24,157 nt of DNA from a virus: IMG/VR virus record IMGVR_UViG_3300012923_000014, positions 1-24,157 of that record, one strand, 5' to 3'. Within the stretch, counting starts at the first letter, position 1. The number at the start of each line of letters is the position of its first letter. Shown one piece after another: positions 2,534 through 20,564 of this stretch. The position numbers and the translations under genes were made by a program. The notes under the pieces were generated by a model. That model was not told where the DNA came from, did not search any database, and worked only from the letters and a program-made list of their open reading frames with translations.

Positions 2534-3241
2534 TTACTTGTGTGATTTAGGATTATTACGAGATTCTTTTATTTCTCTGACTCTGTTTATAGCAGTTATG
2601 AATTTTGATTTTGGCATGTCCGCAAGCGCATGTATCTTAAGACCATTTAACACCATCTCAGTGATGTCCGTATATTCTGCAAGCTCATACTCTAACTCTT
2701 CTAATTGCTCTCGCGTGATTGTTATATGAGATTCTTCTTTTGGATTATATTTTGTGTTCAGCGAAGTTCCCTTCTTTGTCTCTTCACGCACACTGCCCAT
2801 AACCAATTCACCATCATCATCCTCATCCGAGGTGATCACACCAGTTATCGCTGCGTAGGTATAACGCTTCAGATAAGTAATACATGATCCCAAGGACTGG
2901 ATATCATTCTTCACGGGTAGGATACGCATTGATGTACGCATAAATTGCCCTGAAGAATGACACAGGATGCAATGTAATATATTTGCCCCGTCTTCATTGG
3001 GCAGAATCTGGTGGATCACACTCAGGCCGTATTTGGTTAATGCGGGACGCGATGCCCGCACAATATCTGCCAGGTCTGCGTAACGTGATTTGAAGAATGG
3101 GTTCTCTGATGACAGACCGGCAACACGCATCTCTGATTGTGCTTTAGCCAATGCTGCAAAGAGTTCTTTTAGGTCTAACGATTCGTTGGGACTATTATTT
3201 CGAGGTGCTTTTGGTAACAATACTTCTTGGGTTATTTCCAT
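2534..3241 (-). CDS. erf: ERF-family single-strand annealing recombinase
   Basis: Residues about 25-145 match the ERF annealing domain: 'LFAALAKAQSEM', the signature 'NPFFKSRYADLADIVRAS', 'LGSCITYLKRYTYAAITGV' and then an acidic DEDDDGE. ERF proteins bind single-stranded DNA and anneal homologous strands, serving phage recombination and circularisation of terminally redundant genomes. The length (235 aa) fits the family. The C-terminal 90 residues are charged and helical, as is usual for the variable tail. It is the first gene of a leftward unit; a TATAAT lies about 37 bp upstream on the minus strand. Minor start uncertainty: the site before the ATG is only gaga. Confidence 0.88.
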   Translation of the reverse strand: MEITQEVLLPKAPRNNSPNESLDLKELFAALAKAQSEMRVAGLSSENPFFKSRYADLADIVRASRPALTKYGLSVIHQILPNEDGANILHCILCHSSGQFMRTSMRILPVKNDIQSLGSCITYLKRYTYAAITGVITSDEDDDGELVMGSVREETKKGTSLNTKYNPKEESHITITREQLEELEYELAEYTDITEMVLNGLKIHALADMPKSKFITAINRVREIKESRNNPKSHK

Positions 3242-10246: not shown

Positions 10247-10624
10247 TTGAGTGATAATTACGCAGAAAAAGATATATTAGAACTTGAAGAAGAATCTAAG
10301 AAGCTTAATGGAAGACTCAATGAGGTAAGCAATAAGATAAAGGATCTAGAGCGCTTATTTCATAAAAACAACATGTATTTCCCTTTTTGTAAGTTTTTAT
10401 GCATAGAGGATAAATTGGATGTTTTTTTGTCATGGGAAGCCGATGAAAACATAAGAAGTACCTTCAGGCTTTATTTAGTCAAAATATCTGAAAATAACAC
10501 CCTTACTTTTAAACATGTTTTTATAGAGACCAAGCTATCCGAGCGTCTTAAATATGTTGTTTTTTTGGACGCTTTTCTTGAAGACTTTACCCATTGTTTA
10601 AAAGAATTAAACCAATCTCTTTAA
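10247..10624 (+). CDS. Hypothetical coiled-coil protein, TTG start
   Basis: TTG start with gaaggga 6 bases upstream. The 125-residue product has a heptad helix at about 8-38 (ILELEEESKKLNGRLNEV), then an aromatic beta-rich half ('MYFPFCKFLCIEDKLDVFLSW'). First gene after the terminator, ahead of the portal. Unknown function. Confidence 0.55.
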   Translation: MSDNYAEKDILELEEESKKLNGRLNEVSNKIKDLERLFHKNNMYFPFCKFLCIEDKLDVFLSWEADENIRSTFRLYLVKISENNTLTFKHVFIETKLSERLKYVVFLDAFLEDFTHCLKELNQSL

Positions 10625-10700
10625 TTCTTGCTTTAGCGTGATCCCCTTCGTAGACTGGGTCTAGACTTCTAAAAGGGAGACAACCATTTTATTTCCACAA

Positions 10701-12758
10701 TTGGGCCCGCAATATTACGACGAAAAAGATAAAGGCATACTCTCCCGCATGGAAGCGTTCTATGCCGAATCTATAACCGTAAATCAATCCTTTTGGGGAG
10801 AGGCTGATACAGATACTAGATTTGAATCAGGTGATCAGTCTTTATGGAATGACCTCTATGGCAACCTTCCCGCCAATCGTAAGCGTACGTTCAACTTTAA
10901 TCGTATACGACGTGTAGTGCAGATGATTACTGGCCATCAAAGACGCAATCGCAAGTCTACTGTAGCTATCCCTATAGAAAATGCGGACGACAATACGGCA
11001 GATCAATTCACCAAGGTGCTTAGCTGGGTGCACCGTCAAGAAGGAGTCCTTGAGACTATCTCAGAATCATTCCAAGGCTCTCTAATCACCGGTATGAATC
11101 TGCTGCAAGTATGGTTAGATTTTCGCTCTGATCCTGTTTCAGGCAATATTCGTGTAGATAACTGTAGTTACAATAGTTTTCTTATCGATCCTTACTTTAG
11201 AAAAGCCGACCTGTCCGACTGTAATGCCCTTTGGAAACGATCGTTCATAAATAAACGTGAAGCTCTCTCATTGATGCCTGACAAAGAAGAAATGATCATG
11301 AGCCTTTATGGACAGGATACTCGTGATGGTAAATTCCAATTCATGCCAGAAAACTATGCCTTCTCAGGACTTAAAAACCTTCTTTCATATGATGAGTTTT
11401 ATTATCGTGACTATCGCACTCAGCGCATGCTCATCGATTCACAAACCGGTGAGACAACAGAATGGCGCGGCAATGATGAAGAGAAACTTAAACTATTTCT
11501 TCAATCGTACCCATCAGTCACTGTTGTTCAACAAGAAATTCCAACCGTCAAACTTGCAATTGTCTTGCAAGGGAAAGTCATGTTCAACGACAGAAATCCT
11601 TTAGGAATCGATACCTATCCTTTCATACCAGTATGGTCCTATTATAGGCCAGAAATGCCCTATTTCCCTTATCGAATTCAAGGAGTTGTTCGTGGTTTAC
11701 GTGATGCTCAGTATCTTTACAATCGCCGTCGCGTTATCGAGCTTGACATTTTGGAGTCTCAGATAGCCTCCGGATGGAAATATAAAGAAAATGCCCTTGT
11801 GAATCCAAAAGACATATTCATGAGCGGCCAGGGCAAAGGTCTTGCCCTTAAAGACGAAGCACAGATGACCGATGTTGAACAAATACTACCACCTCAGATT
11901 CCACCATCAATGATTCAATTATCGGAGCTCTTAGCCCAAGAAATTATGCAAATTTCGGGTGTAAATGAAGAACTACTCGGCAGTAGTGATGATAGTAAAG
12001 CCGGCATTCTCTCTATGCTCAGACAAGGCGCTGGCTTGACCACTCTTCAAAGTCTCTTCGATAATTTAGATCGAGCACAAAAGCAACTTGGTGAGATCAT
12101 GGTAGAGATAATTCAAAACAACTTCACACCGGGTAAAGTTAAAAAGATTCTCAATGGCGAAGAGCCAGCCAGACAGTTTCATGATAAAGCGTTCGGTAAA
12201 TACGGCTGCGCTATAGAAGAAGGGCTTAACACTACCACTCAAAAGCAGATGCAGTTTGTTCAACTCTTGCAACTTCGTGAGACTGGCGTTCCCGTGCCTG
12301 ATGATGTGTTGCTTGAAGCGTGTACTATCCAAGACAAGCAAAAGCTTATTCAATCCATCCAACAACAACAACAGCAACAACAGCAAATGCAAATGTCCCA
12401 AGCTCAAGCTGCTATGCAAGAACAGGCCGCCCGTACTGAACTTGCTCATGCCCGTGCTGAAGCTGATCGTGGCCTTGGCGCAGAACGGTATAGCCGTATC
12501 GATGAGAATCAAGCCCTTGCTGAAGAGCGTCGCGCAGCGGCTATTAAAGATAATGATATTGGACTCTTGAATTTGATAAAAGCGTTGAAAGAGATTGATA
12601 CAGTTGAAATTGATCAGTTACATAAGCTAATGTCGCTTTCTTCTATGCTACAAAACGGCACAGAAGCGGCGATTGCTCCTAGTACGTCTTTAGTAAAACC
12701 AAAGACAGCTAGGCCTAAATCGAATCAAGCGCCTGCGCGGAGTGTTCCCGCGAGGTAG
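10701..12758 (+). CDS. Portal protein, P22-type
   Basis: The 685-residue protein is the dodecameric ring through which DNA enters and leaves the capsid. P22 gp1-like features are 'NRRRVIELDILESQIASG' in the stem/crown region and 'FNFNRIRRVVQMITGHQRRNRK' near residue 50. A Gln-rich stretch (about 550-570, from CAA/CAG repeats near 12354-12395) leads a long helical C-terminal barrel region. Position after terL and before scaffold and capsid is the expected order. Start: the TTG at 10701 has its nearest ribosome site (gggag, 10675-10679) 21 bases away, but an in-frame ATT at 10686 lies 6 bases after it and would add ILFPQ; an AUU start is possible. Confidence 0.9.
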   Translation: MGPQYYDEKDKGILSRMEAFYAESITVNQSFWGEADTDTRFESGDQSLWNDLYGNLPANRKRTFNFNRIRRVVQMITGHQRRNRKSTVAIPIENADDNTADQFTKVLSWVHRQEGVLETISESFQGSLITGMNLLQVWLDFRSDPVSGNIRVDNCSYNSFLIDPYFRKADLSDCNALWKRSFINKREALSLMPDKEEMIMSLYGQDTRDGKFQFMPENYAFSGLKNLLSYDEFYYRDYRTQRMLIDSQTGETTEWRGNDEEKLKLFLQSYPSVTVVQQEIPTVKLAIVLQGKVMFNDRNPLGIDTYPFIPVWSYYRPEMPYFPYRIQGVVRGLRDAQYLYNRRRVIELDILESQIASGWKYKENALVNPKDIFMSGQGKGLALKDEAQMTDVEQILPPQIPPSMIQLSELLAQEIMQISGVNEELLGSSDDSKAGILSMLRQGAGLTTLQSLFDNLDRAQKQLGEIMVEIIQNNFTPGKVKKILNGEEPARQFHDKAFGKYGCAIEEGLNTTTQKQMQFVQLLQLRETGVPVPDDVLLEACTIQDKQKLIQSIQQQQQQQQQMQMSQAQAAMQEQAARTELAHARAEADRGLGAERYSRIDENQALAEERRAAAIKDNDIGLLNLIKALKEIDTVEIDQLHKLMSLSSMLQNGTEAAIAPSTSLVKPKTARPKSNQAPARSVPAR

Positions 12759-17737: not shown

Positions 17738-18034
17738 ATGTACCACGACCACATACCGAAGATTAAATCAAGCGATAGGCCATGGATCTCTTATTGTTCG
17801 TTATGCGATTTCGATTTTTGTTTGTTATGCCAGAAAGAAAACGGAGACACTCGATTTGTGTATTTTGAGAGATCAGTAATTAATTTATGCATAGACTGTA
17901 ATTGGGATATACAGGATTCAATAGAAGGTGCACGTTATAACCGAATCATGGAATTCTTTACACATTATGGTCGGCTGGATCATATATTAAAGAACCCTAA
18001 GGGTGTTCCTTTTGAAGATGAGCACAATAAATAG
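17738..18034 (+). CDS. Cys-rich small protein
   Basis: 98 residues with CSLC, CLLC and a later CIDC (about residues 20, 29 and 52), the same small zinc-ribbon plan as the genes at 5941 and 7340 but with an extra pair. Follows the scaffold by 30 bases and ends before the terminator at 18070. Function unknown. Confidence 0.55.
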   Translation: MYHDHIPKIKSSDRPWISYCSLCDFDFCLLCQKENGDTRFVYFERSVINLCIDCNWDIQDSIEGARYNRIMEFFTHYGRLDHILKNPKGVPFEDEHNK

Positions 18035-18266: not shown

Positions 18267-20564
18267 GTGGCAATTACCACTACGTCTAGCCTTCCGGCAC
18301 CGGTTCAACAGAGTTTTAGTTATAAACTCTTGTCTGTCCCTGTGCCAAATATGATCCACAAGATACCGGCAATGAAGAAACAAATGCCGCGTAACGGTGG
18401 TACAACTTTACGTATGCGTCGATTAAGTTTAGTCGACCTTAAATCTTTTCTGATTGACTTGGAGTTCGAAGTGGCTTACGTTACGGCGTAAACTAACCGA
18501 TAACAAGGGGCAAGGTAAAGATGTTTAATATCTTCAAAAAAAAAGAAAACGATTCCGTTAAAATTTTCAACAAAGAAGATTCTTTCAACGGAGACTTTCG
18601 TTGTTTATGCGTAAAAAAACTATGTGAATCCCTCTATGACAAAGATGGTATTCATAGGAACGGTGGCCTTCGTATTTCCGATAAACTTATTCGCGCTTAT
18701 TTTTTTGCCATACCAGAACCAGATCATATAGATTTTGAAGATGTTAGAATTTGTCTAAACCGGCCTGAACGACTGAGTGAAAAGATATCTGAAATGTTAG
18801 CTCGAAGAGCAAAAGACAAATCAGATAATGCGACAGTCTGAACTCTACACGATAAGGTAGAGAGGGAACTCCGAAGAGGGATCCCCGCCTCGAAAGAGGT
18901 CATAAAAGTAACAGAATGATAACCCGTTGAATACAGCGATGGTACCACTAGGTAATTCTGGTGTAACTCCTCCCGCTCAAAATCTAACGGCTGTGGATAT
19001 CGATGCAAAGATCAGTTTTTACGGCACTTATGTTCAACTCAATGAGCAGGTGACTCTACAAAACCAAGACCCTAAAAGGTATGGGGTCTTTAAATCTTCT
19101 CTGATAGACTTGAAAGCCGAAGTAGCAATTAGCTAACCGGTAACAAGGGGCAAGATTATGATTACAGTAATTTCTGATCAATATGTATGCATACATAGAG
19201 CTCAATTAGCTTTTAAGAAAACGCAGAATTGCGTGGGAGCTGTGTATGAGATTACATGTGATGAGGATTCTAAGTGTCCTGATCAGCCTGATCGCAGCAA
19301 GCGAGAAGACCTTCACCATAAAGATTGCATTCCCTGGATAAAACACAATTGTTGGCATAGTTATAACCAGCGGGATAAGTGTGAACATAAAGAAGATTGT
19401 GATCTTATTGTTGGTGCTAGGATGCGGTGCTCAGAACATTGTGGAAACACAGTGAGGGAAGTGCAATAGGCTTCCTCGCCTCGTAAGAGGTCATACAAGT
19501 AACAGACTGGTACTTAACGAATGCGCAGCACGACTTGGTGTATCACTCCGTTAAATTGGCGGAGTATAAATCTTTCCTAATTGACTTGGAACCCGAAGTG
19601 TGCACAATAAGTGCATAACCGGAAACAAGGGGCAAGAGTATGAGTAAAATAATGATTTGTAAATATTGTTTCGTTGACCTTGCAAACGCAGAGACTTATT
19701 CTATGTCTAGTAAAGAACCCAATCGGCATTATTTTTGCCAAGAATGTATTCCTATGATGCGATTGGTTTCTGATTGTGTGAAGGATGCTATCAACGAACG
19801 TGTTTTTTTCGCTCTCGCATCTATGAGCGAACTTATTACTCGGCCTGAACGACTTAACGGAAAGACCTCTGATAAAGAGGGTGCGAAAGTCTGAACACGA
19901 TTCGATAAGATCGTGAGGAGGATCCGAAGAGGTTCTCCCGCCTGAAAAGGTCATACAAGTAACAGATTAGCAAACGGAAGATCAGCTAACTCGCGATATG
20001 CTAGCGAGTACTGCGTCGTTTATTAACTGCGTTGGTGGTGTAAACGGTGATATACCGACTGAAATCACTCGCTCTGATGTTGATGAAGTGGTGCGTACAT
20101 TGCTTGATAACAATGCGTACACCATCATGGATAACATTGAAGGTGAAGATAAGTTCGGTACAGCACCAGTTCGTGATGCATACTTTGCATTATGCTCGAC
20201 TAACCTGACTGGTAACCTTGATGCAGTATCTGGTTTCATTCAAAAGAACCAATATCCTGCACCAATGAATGCGTTACGTTCAGAATGGGGTGCAATTGGA
20301 AACCTCCGTTTCCTTATTTCATCCATTGGTTCACAAGTATTACAAGGCTCATCCCTTGGCAATACTGTGTACAACATATTCTGTGTGGGTATGGAAGCGT
20401 ATGCATGCATCGAACAAGATGGCTATAGCGCGAGCTTTATCTATCGCCCACCTATATATGATAGTCCATTAGCCTTAAACGCTTCTGTGGGCTACAAATT
20501 TGCTGAAGTGCCGCGTATCACTAACGACCTCTGGGTCATTAACCTACGCGCTACATTAGCGTAA
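18267..20564 (+). CDS. Major capsid protein, N4-gp56-type, split by three introns
   Basis: Coding segments are join(18267..18423, 18919..19073, 19510..19551, 19971..20564): 315 codons plus stop, GTG start after aaaggag. Spliced order: exon 1 'PVQQSFSYKLLSVPVPNMI' to 'TTLRMRR'; exon 2 'YNPLNTAMVPLGNSGVTPP' to 'LQNQDP'; exon 3 'VLNECAARLGVSLR'; exon 4 'QTEDQLTRDMLASTASF' to the end. These joins restore the family's typical R-R-Y-x-P-L, V-L-N-E-x-A-x-x-L-G and Q-T-x-D stretches exactly in frame. Exon 1 ends in the first base of the Tyr codon, and the other joins fall between codons. Without splicing, ribosomes stop in intron 1 at 18491. The protein forms the icosahedral shell. It lies after the scaffold and before virion genes, as expected. 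A frameshifted pseudogene is excluded by the intact joined frame. Confidence 0.9.
18424..18918 (+). ncRNA. Group I intron 1 of the major capsid gene
   Basis: 495 nt. P1: exon GUCGAU (18418-18423) pairs with guide GUCGAC (18432-18437), giving the standard U.G pair at the cut. P3: AUCUUUUC (18443-18450) with GAAAAGAU (18779-18786). P4: CUUG/CAAG (18458, 18504). P5: UCG/CGA (18466, 18498) topped by a UUACG/CGUAA hairpin. P7: A-C-GACUG (18769...18775, C bulged) with CAGUCU (18834-18839). P8: AUCUGA (18787) with UCAGAU (18821). P9-region hairpins include CUCUAC/GUAGAG and a GAAA-capped CCUC/GAGG near the end. The last base is G. P10 is weak (exon UAA with UUA). An ORF (18521-18841) lies mainly in the P6 loop. 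Confidence 0.9.
18521..18841 (+). CDS. Intron 1 ORF, unknown function
   Basis: 106 residues. Its ribosome site is the AAGGGGCAAGG of the ribozyme core (P4/P6), and its stop TGA is part of the P7 strand (AGUCUGA). The N-terminal half is Lys-rich (MFNIFKKKENDSVKIFNKED), with 'FRCLCVKKLCESLYD' and 'KLIRAYFFAIPEPDHIDFED' in the middle. The last 30 residues (NRPERLSEKISEM onward) are encoded by P7, P3 and P8. No LAGLIDADG, GIY-YIG, HNH or PD-(D/E)xK homing motif is visible. Product may be a maturase, a novel homing factor or passenger cargo. Confidence 0.6.
   Translation: MFNIFKKKENDSVKIFNKEDSFNGDFRCLCVKKLCESLYDKDGIHRNGGLRISDKLIRAYFFAIPEPDHIDFEDVRICLNRPERLSEKISEMLARRAKDKSDNATV
19074..19509 (+). 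ncRNA. Group I intron 2 of the major capsid gene
   Basis: 436 nt. P1: exon AAGACCCU (19066-19073) with guide GGGGUCUU (19083-19090), U.G at the cut. P10: exon 3 GUACUU with AGGUAU (19077-19082), six pairs. P3: UCUUCUC (19095-19101) with GAGAAGA (19303-19309). P4 CUUG/CAAG; P5 GCCG/CGGU topped by UAGC/GCUA. P7: U-C-G-C-AGCA (19292-19299, two bulged C) with UGCUCA (19428-19433). P8: CCU and CACC (19310-19317) with GGUG and AGG (19413-19421). Hairpins near the 3' end have GAAA and GUAA tetraloops. Ends in G. Pairings differ in sequence from introns 1 and 3 but keep the fold. Confidence 0.9.
19158..19469 (+). CDS. Intron 2 ORF, Cys/His-rich, unknown function
   Basis: 103 residues beginning 3 bases after the core AAGGGGCAAG. 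It has eight Cys and many His ('CIPWIKHNCWHSYNQRDKCEH', with spacing not matching a standard zinc finger), so metal binding is plausible. 'DQPDRSKREDLHHKD' is encoded by P7, P3 and P8 in the same frame as the RPER stretch of introns 1 and 3. Unlike those, it reads through the P7 strand and stops at 19469 in the P9 region. No known homing-nuclease motif. Confidence 0.6.
   Translation: MITVISDQYVCIHRAQLAFKKTQNCVGAVYEITCDEDSKCPDQPDRSKREDLHHKDCIPWIKHNCWHSYNQRDKCEHKEDCDLIVGARMRCSEHCGNTVREVQ
19552..19970 (+). ncRNA. Group I intron 3 of the major capsid gene
   Basis: 419 nt. P1: exon ACUCCGU (19545-19551) with guide GCGGAGU (19559-19565), U.G at the cut. P10: exon 4 CAA with UUG (19556-19558). P3: UCUUUCC (19571-19577) with GGAAAGA (19859-19865). 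P4 CUUG/CAAG; P5 CCG/CGG topped by UGCAC/GUGCA. P7: A-C-GACUU (19849-19855, C bulged) with AAGUCU (19887-19892). P8: CCUCU (19866-19870) with AGAGG (19876-19880). Hairpins near the 3' end: CACGAU/AUCGUG and a GAAA-capped CCU/AGG. Ends in G. A further GAGUAA/UUACUC pairing may close the ORF-bearing loop. Confidence 0.9.
19640..19894 (+). CDS. Intron 3 ORF, double-CxxC protein
   Basis: 84 residues beginning 3 bases after the core AAGGGGCAAG. 'MICKYCFVDLANAETYSM' and 'HYFCQECIPMMRLVSDC' form two CxxC pairs in the same plan as the free-standing phage protein at 7340. The C-terminal 'TRPERLNGKTSDKEGAKV' is ribozyme sequence, and the TGA stop lies in the P7 strand at the same site as in intron 1. 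No homing-nuclease motif. It looks like a phage small-protein gene carried as cargo. Confidence 0.6.
   Translation: MSKIMICKYCFVDLANAETYSMSSKEPNRHYFCQECIPMMRLVSDCVKDAINERVFFALASMSELITRPERLNGKTSDKEGAKV

Follow-up and report, generated by a model that had tools for sequence, protein, structure and literature searches.

Three separately acquired group I introns split the major capsid gene of a phage

The viral DNA analysed here, a stretch of 24,157 nt (positions 1 to 24,157 of IMG/VR virus record IMGVR_UViG_3300012923_000014; hereafter, the window), carries a phage major capsid protein (MCP) gene at 18267-20564 that is interrupted three times, by introns of 495, 436 and 419 nt. Left unspliced, the frame reaches a stop shortly past exon 1. 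Cutting out 18424-18918, 19074-19509 and 19552-19970 leaves one frame of 315 amino acids (aa) without a stop, and the spliced coding sequence (CDS) is 948 nt with the stop counted, not the 951 coding bases given by an initial annotation made from the sequence. The gene is laid out as follows:

18267..18423, + strand: MCP exon 1, 157 nt, GTG start; colinear with uninterrupted homologues
18424..18918, + strand: group I intron 1, 495 nt; insertion site at nt 157 of the CDS
18919..19073, + strand: MCP exon 2, 155 nt; colinear with uninterrupted homologues
19074..19509, + strand: group I intron 2, 436 nt; insertion site at nt 312, which is filled in 20 loci; variant P7
19510..19551, + strand: MCP mini-exon 3, 42 nt only; colinear with uninterrupted homologues
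19552..19970, + strand: group I intron 3, 419 nt; insertion site at nt 354
19971..20564, + strand: MCP exon 4 including the stop, 594 nt; colinear with uninterrupted homologues

With each cut marked by a slash, the splice sites read ..GTCGAT/TAAG..AATG/ATAACC for intron 1, ..GACCCT/AAAA..ACTG/GTACTT for intron 2 and ..CTCCGT/TAAA..TTAG/CAAACG for intron 3. Other viral contigs hold uninterrupted 945-nt capsid homologues (89-95% aa identity), and because the DNA of these homologues runs through each join (for example, GTATGCGTAGAT/ATAATCC, AACCAAGACCCT/GTGTTA and GTTTCTCTCCGT/CAAACC), the splice sites are right to the base. The initial annotation had named such relatives as a check on its joins, and in relatives at 93-95% aa identity the sequence is exactly continuous at all three; it had also described three stretches with shared blocks interrupting one frame, whose excision restores a capsid protein without a stop, and both the blocks and the rescued frame are present. 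In a profile search, the joined 315-aa product matched the PHROG 1357 major head protein (E = 7e-30, residues 2-272); against Pfam Phage_capsid_4 it reached 8e-6, 0.2 bits short of the cut-off. The same three introns occur in a second contig (L077) that is 99.96% identical to the window over 8412 bases, and the terL and portal frames of the window are intact. We regard it as confirmed that the three stretches are group I introns within a phage major capsid gene.

Each window intron has a P1 helix with a U.G pair at the 5′ splice site and a terminal G. Across the family, P1 and the terminal G are found in 87 of 87 cores by construction of the search, but the cuts in the window are fixed independently by protein continuity. 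P3, P4, P6 and P7 could be placed in all three introns; P5, which the initial annotation had listed for every copy along with P1, the terminal G, P3, P4, P7 and P8, is clear only in introns 1 and 3. The helices are:

18418..18437, + strand: P1 of intron 1, exon GUCGAU (18418-18423) with GUCGAC (18432-18437); U.G at the 5′ splice site
18443..18786, + strand: P3 of intron 1, AUCUUUUC (18443-18450) with GAAAAGAU (18779-18786); this helix covaries in alignment A1, described below
18771..18838, + strand: P7 of intron 1, GACUG (18771-18775) with CAGUC (18834-18838); pseudoknot with P3
19066..19090, + strand: P1 of intron 2, AAGACCCU (19066-19073) with GGGGUCUU (19083-19090)
19095..19309, + strand: P3 of intron 2, UCUUCUC (19095-19101) with GAGAAGA (19303-19309)
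19293..19432, + strand: variant P7 of intron 2, CGCAGCA (19293-19299) with UGCUC (19428-19432)
19546..19564, + strand: P1 of intron 3, CUCCGU (19546-19551) with GCGGAG (19559-19564)
19571..19865, + strand: P3 of intron 3, UCUUUCC (19571-19577) with GGAAAGA (19859-19865)
19851..19891, + strand: P7 of intron 3, GACUU (19851-19855) with AAGUC (19887-19891)

The P7 of intron 2 is unusual in having a C-bulge, an extra base and the pairing AGCA/UGCU, a form common to 18 of 106 family members. Allowing up to three mismatches, the window has three copies of the 3′ motif, compared with 0.01 expected.

Alignment A1 comprises 27 compact relatives (about 200-230 nt, with no open reading frame (ORF)), none of them from the window. 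It folds into P3, P4, P5, P6, P8 and P9 plus another two hairpins on the 3′ side, with P7 fitting in as the pseudoknot partner. Its 49 pairs are paired in 97.9% of cells, 35 of them, P7 included, have changes on both sides, and compensated changes occur in every helix (P3, P4, P5, P6, P7, P8 and P9); the covariation score was 0.615, against 0.185 after shuffling and about 0.1 in slid controls. At the guanosine site of P7, a G-C pair beside an unpaired base is invariant (27/27) and the outer pair varies among A-U, U-A and G-C; P7 of the T4 td intron likewise has a G-C pair beside an unpaired base. We built a covariance model, R1, from the A1 relatives without any window sequence. It matched intron 1 (3′ part 109.9 bits, E = 1e-35; 5′ part 27.1 bits), intron 2 (59.9 bits, E = 5e-19; 29.4 bits) and intron 3 (97.4 bits, E = 2e-31; 18.3 bits), in two parts each because about 130-250 nt of ORF occupy P6. 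The group I identity proposed initially, together with its covarying P3 and P7 pairs, is thus borne out, and the assignment rests on fold and covariation, not on an Rfam label. In nearly all aligned family members J7/3 is about 3 nt. P7.1/P7.2 between P7 and P3′ defines T4-like IA introns; a J7/3 of about three bases leaves no space for it, and the family therefore falls outside the T4-like IA type.

At least 120 IMG/VR stretches contain AGGTCATAMAAGTAACAGA, the conserved sequence at the 3′ end of these introns, and many of the introns in them are of the compact form. We surveyed capsid genes by tblastn and splice mapping over 205 sequences (204 fetched loci and the window), a set drawn by intron motif and by best capsid matches; both ways of sampling are biased, and the counts therefore show range, not frequency. 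The survey gave 111 introns with a good P1. This total is a lower bound for these loci: automatic splicing fused introns in L107 and overlooked some in L017 and L065, with manual correction for L017 alone. The introns occupy about 43 sites along the 945-nt gene, an approximate figure since a junction in a divergent MCP can be misplaced by one codon. Some positions are only three to five nt apart (309, 312, 314). Seventy-nine of 133 exact 3′ motifs were resolved within capsid genes; other family introns split portal, terminase, tape-measure-like and ribonucleotide-reductase-like genes, as named by inspection of the proteins. A capsid gene with several introns, which the initial annotation had called rare, is not so within this lineage, where many related capsid genes hold two to five and the number reaches five in L017 and G027:C388.

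Annotated phages gave a sparser picture. A blastn search of them with intron 1 returned no match, and a distant DNA search of 50,697 annotated phage records with a compact relative returned one good match, MW202674.1 (L211, 14377-19495), in which the gene for a P22-type coat protein is entered as two CDS on either side of a hypothetical protein; R1 detected an intron at this locus at 150.6 bits. Standard annotation fragments such capsid genes, as it did here, and the family, common in environmental phage contigs, is almost absent from annotated phage records and is missed by Rfam.

The P6 region of each window intron holds a sense ORF:

18521..18841, + strand: intron 1 sense ORF, 106 aa; starts 6 nt past AAGGGGCAAG and ends at the UGA adjoining P7 3′
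19158..19469, + strand: intron 2 sense ORF, 103 aa; 80% identical over 60 aa to the L065 ORF at the same site
19640..19894, + strand: intron 3 sense ORF, 84 aa, CxxC..CxxC

The intron 1 ORF had no match in Pfam or PHROG, and searches of these two databases found no recognisable endonuclease in the window introns, the best match being that of the intron 3 ORF to phrog_2255 HNH (E = 0.012). The placement of such ORFs is constrained across the family. In 29 of 30 sense-type introns (90-450 nt in P6), a start codon lies at or adjoining the P4′/P6 strand AAGGGGCAAG, in frame with a stop-free insert, whereas shuffled inserts gave the same start and open frame in 0.33 of 30. The start is usually an ATG three bases after AAGGGGCAAG, so that the AAGGGG of the core sits where a Shine-Dalgarno sequence would be, and the frame runs on through P6′, P7, P3′ and P8, mostly stopping at a UGA beside P7 3′ (..QPERLSEKTSKEDAIV). 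The encoded proteins are short and mostly unrelated to one another; several have CxxC pairs, and none showed a clear family in Pfam and PHROG searches. Between the intron 3 ORF and its counterpart in a terL intron (contig L044), nonsynonymous divergence (dN) was 0.094 and synonymous divergence (dS) 1.17; at least the intron 3 ORF is therefore selected as a protein. Purifying selection was seen in two ORF pairs.

Longer relatives carry a different cargo. Introns of about 700-820 nt encode a single-motif LAGLIDADG protein on the opposite strand (PF00961, best E = 2.8e-5), and these antisense ORFs are under purifying selection; the long sense proteins that can be read from the same introns were discarded as the shadow of the antisense gene. 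MCP introns of L033 (site 902) and L038 (site 841) hold a sense ORF with what looks by inspection like an HNH ending, HHEDYSKPLDVIW.C..CH, for which the L033 protein had no Pfam match. Just upstream of the capsid gene in the window lies a further small CxxC-rich ORF (17738-18034, + strand, 98 aa), which resembles the cargo ORFs of the introns in style and had no significant family match in Pfam or PHROG.

The initial annotation took the three introns to have spread within the gene. Their near-identical core blocks, all within 1.6 kb, invite the view that they are recent duplicates of one intron copied inside the capsid gene, but the shared blocks are common to the whole family, and core identities among the three are 0.705, 0.778 and 0.672, whereas each has closer counterparts (0.84-0.92) at different sites in other phages. 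Introns of the same genome had a mean identity of 0.690, compared with 0.693 for random family pairs, and none of 40 introns had its nearest relative within its own genome. Over 380 nt that take in the ORF, intron 3 shares 80.5% identity with the terL intron of L044 (reverse strand, around 10444-10883), its nearest full-length relative and its sister, whose guide and exon are wholly different. Copying within the gene is thus very improbable, and the introns were separately acquired. Site fidelity exists but is slight: the nearest relative was at the same site for 18 of 65 introns, and in a tree of 87 distinct cores, resting on 178 columns, site labels need 64 changes (minimum 40, shuffled mean 70.9). 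A jump by guide-conserving reverse splicing alone is not supported, as close relatives at different sites have guides no more alike than permuted ones (target pentamers agree at 1.94 of 5 positions versus 1.78 by permutation, with 150 of 1000 permutations as high). In only 14 of 87 introns do the 5′ and 3′ core halves agree on their nearest neighbour, which points to recombination between introns as well. One could go further and suppose that introns stay at old sites while only cores and cargo are swapped, with no recent jump needed; besides the discordant halves, this would suit intron 2, whose 5′ part is 97% like L103 (site 516) and whose ORF resembles that of L065 at its own site 312, as well as the guides, which fit the site they are at and differ from those of close relatives elsewhere. 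However, the roughly 43 sites in closely related capsid genes, many of them recorded a single time, would still need many insertions, the match between intron 3 and the terL intron spans 380 nt, and short cores make halves hard to place. We consider swapping without jumps a serious contender, though one we would sooner doubt than accept. With dozens of filled and empty sites in one conserved gene, the family allows direct tests of how a group I intron arrives at a new site and gains a matching guide, and of whether selection acts on intron cargo that is not an endonuclease.

Two other accounts were weighed. Decayed, non-splicing introns in the broken capsid gene of a dead phage, or an assembly chimera, might be proposed, as splicing is here predicted from sequence and fold. 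Against this stand the second, 99.96% identical contig, the intact P1, P3 and P7 of all three introns, a capsid protein conserved at 93-95% in aa with nucleotide identity at 76-79%, the intact terL and portal frames and an intron ORF under purifying selection, so that we give decay or chimerism even less credence than copying within the gene. Inteins, programmed translational bypassing and group II introns are the other known ways for a phage gene to carry an insert, but the inserts hold stops in the host frame, unlike inteins, and are much longer than the known bypass elements; they have a covarying group I core with a P3/P7 pseudoknot, and Rfam gave no group II match in the window. This last set of explanations we hold to be the least probable of all, and close to dismissal.

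We consider it highly probable that the window contains self-removing group I introns, separately acquired from one large phage lineage by transfer and not by duplication in the gene, with P6 serving as a slot. Several points weigh against this reading. Splicing is deduced from the DNA and a predicted fold; the P1 helices were picked by an optimising search, though protein continuity fixes identical cuts; the core of intron 2 is atypical in its extra P7 base; and the core tree, with its 178 columns, is probably blurred by recombination. Exact spliced-junction strings of the window strain were found 0 times in viral contigs, a result of neutral weight. Finally, at its own cut-off Rfam gave no match in the window, and relaxing the threshold to E = 10 still brought up nothing resembling group I. 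The initial annotation had suggested a search with a group I model and would have counted such a blank against itself; Rfam literally returned one, while the independent R1 matches all three introns. The Rfam model RF00028 aligned to one compact relative over P4, P7, P3′ and P9 with 25.2 bits (E = 1.4e-4), under the cut-off, and did not match the compact introns in six other carrier loci. Among controls, it detected T4 sunY (105 bits), the three-intron cluster of Staphylococcus phage MR003 and an intron of a crAss-like phage, scored T4 nrdB only below threshold, and at E ≤ 0.1 found nothing in the T4 td region (L213, T4 136000-145000); R1 aligned weakly to T4 sunY (17 bits, E = 6e-5). Because RF00028 also misses the T4 td region, while R1 matches all three window introns, the Rfam miss is most probably a gap in the library.

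From the structure of the introns and the conservation of the encoded protein, we infer that they splice in the cell. The guide strand would form P1 by pairing with the 6-8 bases that end the upstream exon, with U.G at the cut, the compact P3-P9 core would fold, and each intron would then be removed by two guanosine-started transesterifications, so that three predicted splicing reactions per capsid mRNA would join four exons into the 315-aa frame. Ectopic transfer and recombination would carry the lineage from one phage, site or gene to another, and its P6 is a slot that takes either a small protein gene, read from the AAGGGG of the core into P7, or the antisense LAGLIDADG endonuclease of longer relatives. 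A ribosome translating the intron ORF would traverse P7, which should keep that molecule from splicing, and the two outcomes would then exclude each other; a comparable conflict between translation and splicing has been described for I-TevI in T4 td. We put forward tentatively, and with more doubt than confidence, that the lineage may be a modular mobile platform in which a variable 6-8-nt guide between conserved ends fills dozens of sites in one essential capsid gene, the P6 slot yields various small phage proteins whose ribosome site is made of the P4′/P6 strand of the ribozyme itself, and the frame through P7 makes translation and splicing exclusive. If so, this exclusion could tune capsid expression.

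Phage genes with several group I introns, capsid genes among them, are already known, and the window is one more case. The T4 td, nrdB and nrdD/sunY introns share with the family a P1 with U.G, the P3/P7 pseudoknot, a bulged C and G-C in P7 and an ORF in a loop; they differ in host gene, cargo and 3′ end, and the family is set apart by a J7/3 of about 3 nt; the window introns, moreover, are missed by RF00028. Staphylococcus phage Twort has three introns in one gene, orf142 (Landthaler and Shub 1999, cited in PMC11878797). Twort orf142 and MR003 resemble the window in having three group I introns in one phage gene and differ in the gene and in the intron lineage, R1 reaching at most 12.7 bits in MR003. 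The MR003 introns (L209, AP019522.1 55542-58594), three detected by Rfam within 950 bases, are without intron annotation in the record. Bastillevirinae have two or three group I introns per phage gene (DNA polymerase, terminase), and RF00028 is reported to cover some group I subgroups poorly (PMC11878797); these introns lie in other genes and are detectable with Rfam/GISSD models (PMC11878797). In zeta-group crAss-like phages, group I introns split the MCP into five fragments (Yutin et al. 2021, PMC7886860). There, too, several introns lie in a major capsid gene, but they were recognised by endonuclease domains, in gut phages of 145-192 kb (PMC7886860), whereas the phages here have a P22-like portal and a phrog_1357 capsid, and their introns carry small non-endonuclease ORFs and occupy about 43 sites. 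Within the literature searched, what appears to be new is a lineage that Rfam misses in the window, that is concentrated at about 43 sites of one capsid gene and has been reshuffled among phages, genes and sites, and that has a cargo slot whose frame is fixed and tied to the ribozyme core, with LAGLIDADG genes in antisense in its longer members.

Capsid relatives were found in bins of four different taxa. Carriers made up 2 of 39 Parachlamydiaceae genomes (probe included), compared with 1 of 121 (the probe itself) in the family of a Methylococcaceae bin. Parachlamydiaceae, the only family with a second carrier, is a possible lead, too weak to name a host; G027:C388 (L219, L220), a 39.8-kb phage contig with a five-intron capsid gene, comes from a genome of this family. 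Elsewhere in the window, a free-standing HNH endonuclease gene lies at 2000-2524 on the − strand (PHROG 3593, E = 1e-23; Pfam HNH_3), adjoined by an Erf-like recombinase gene at 2534-3241, also on the − strand.

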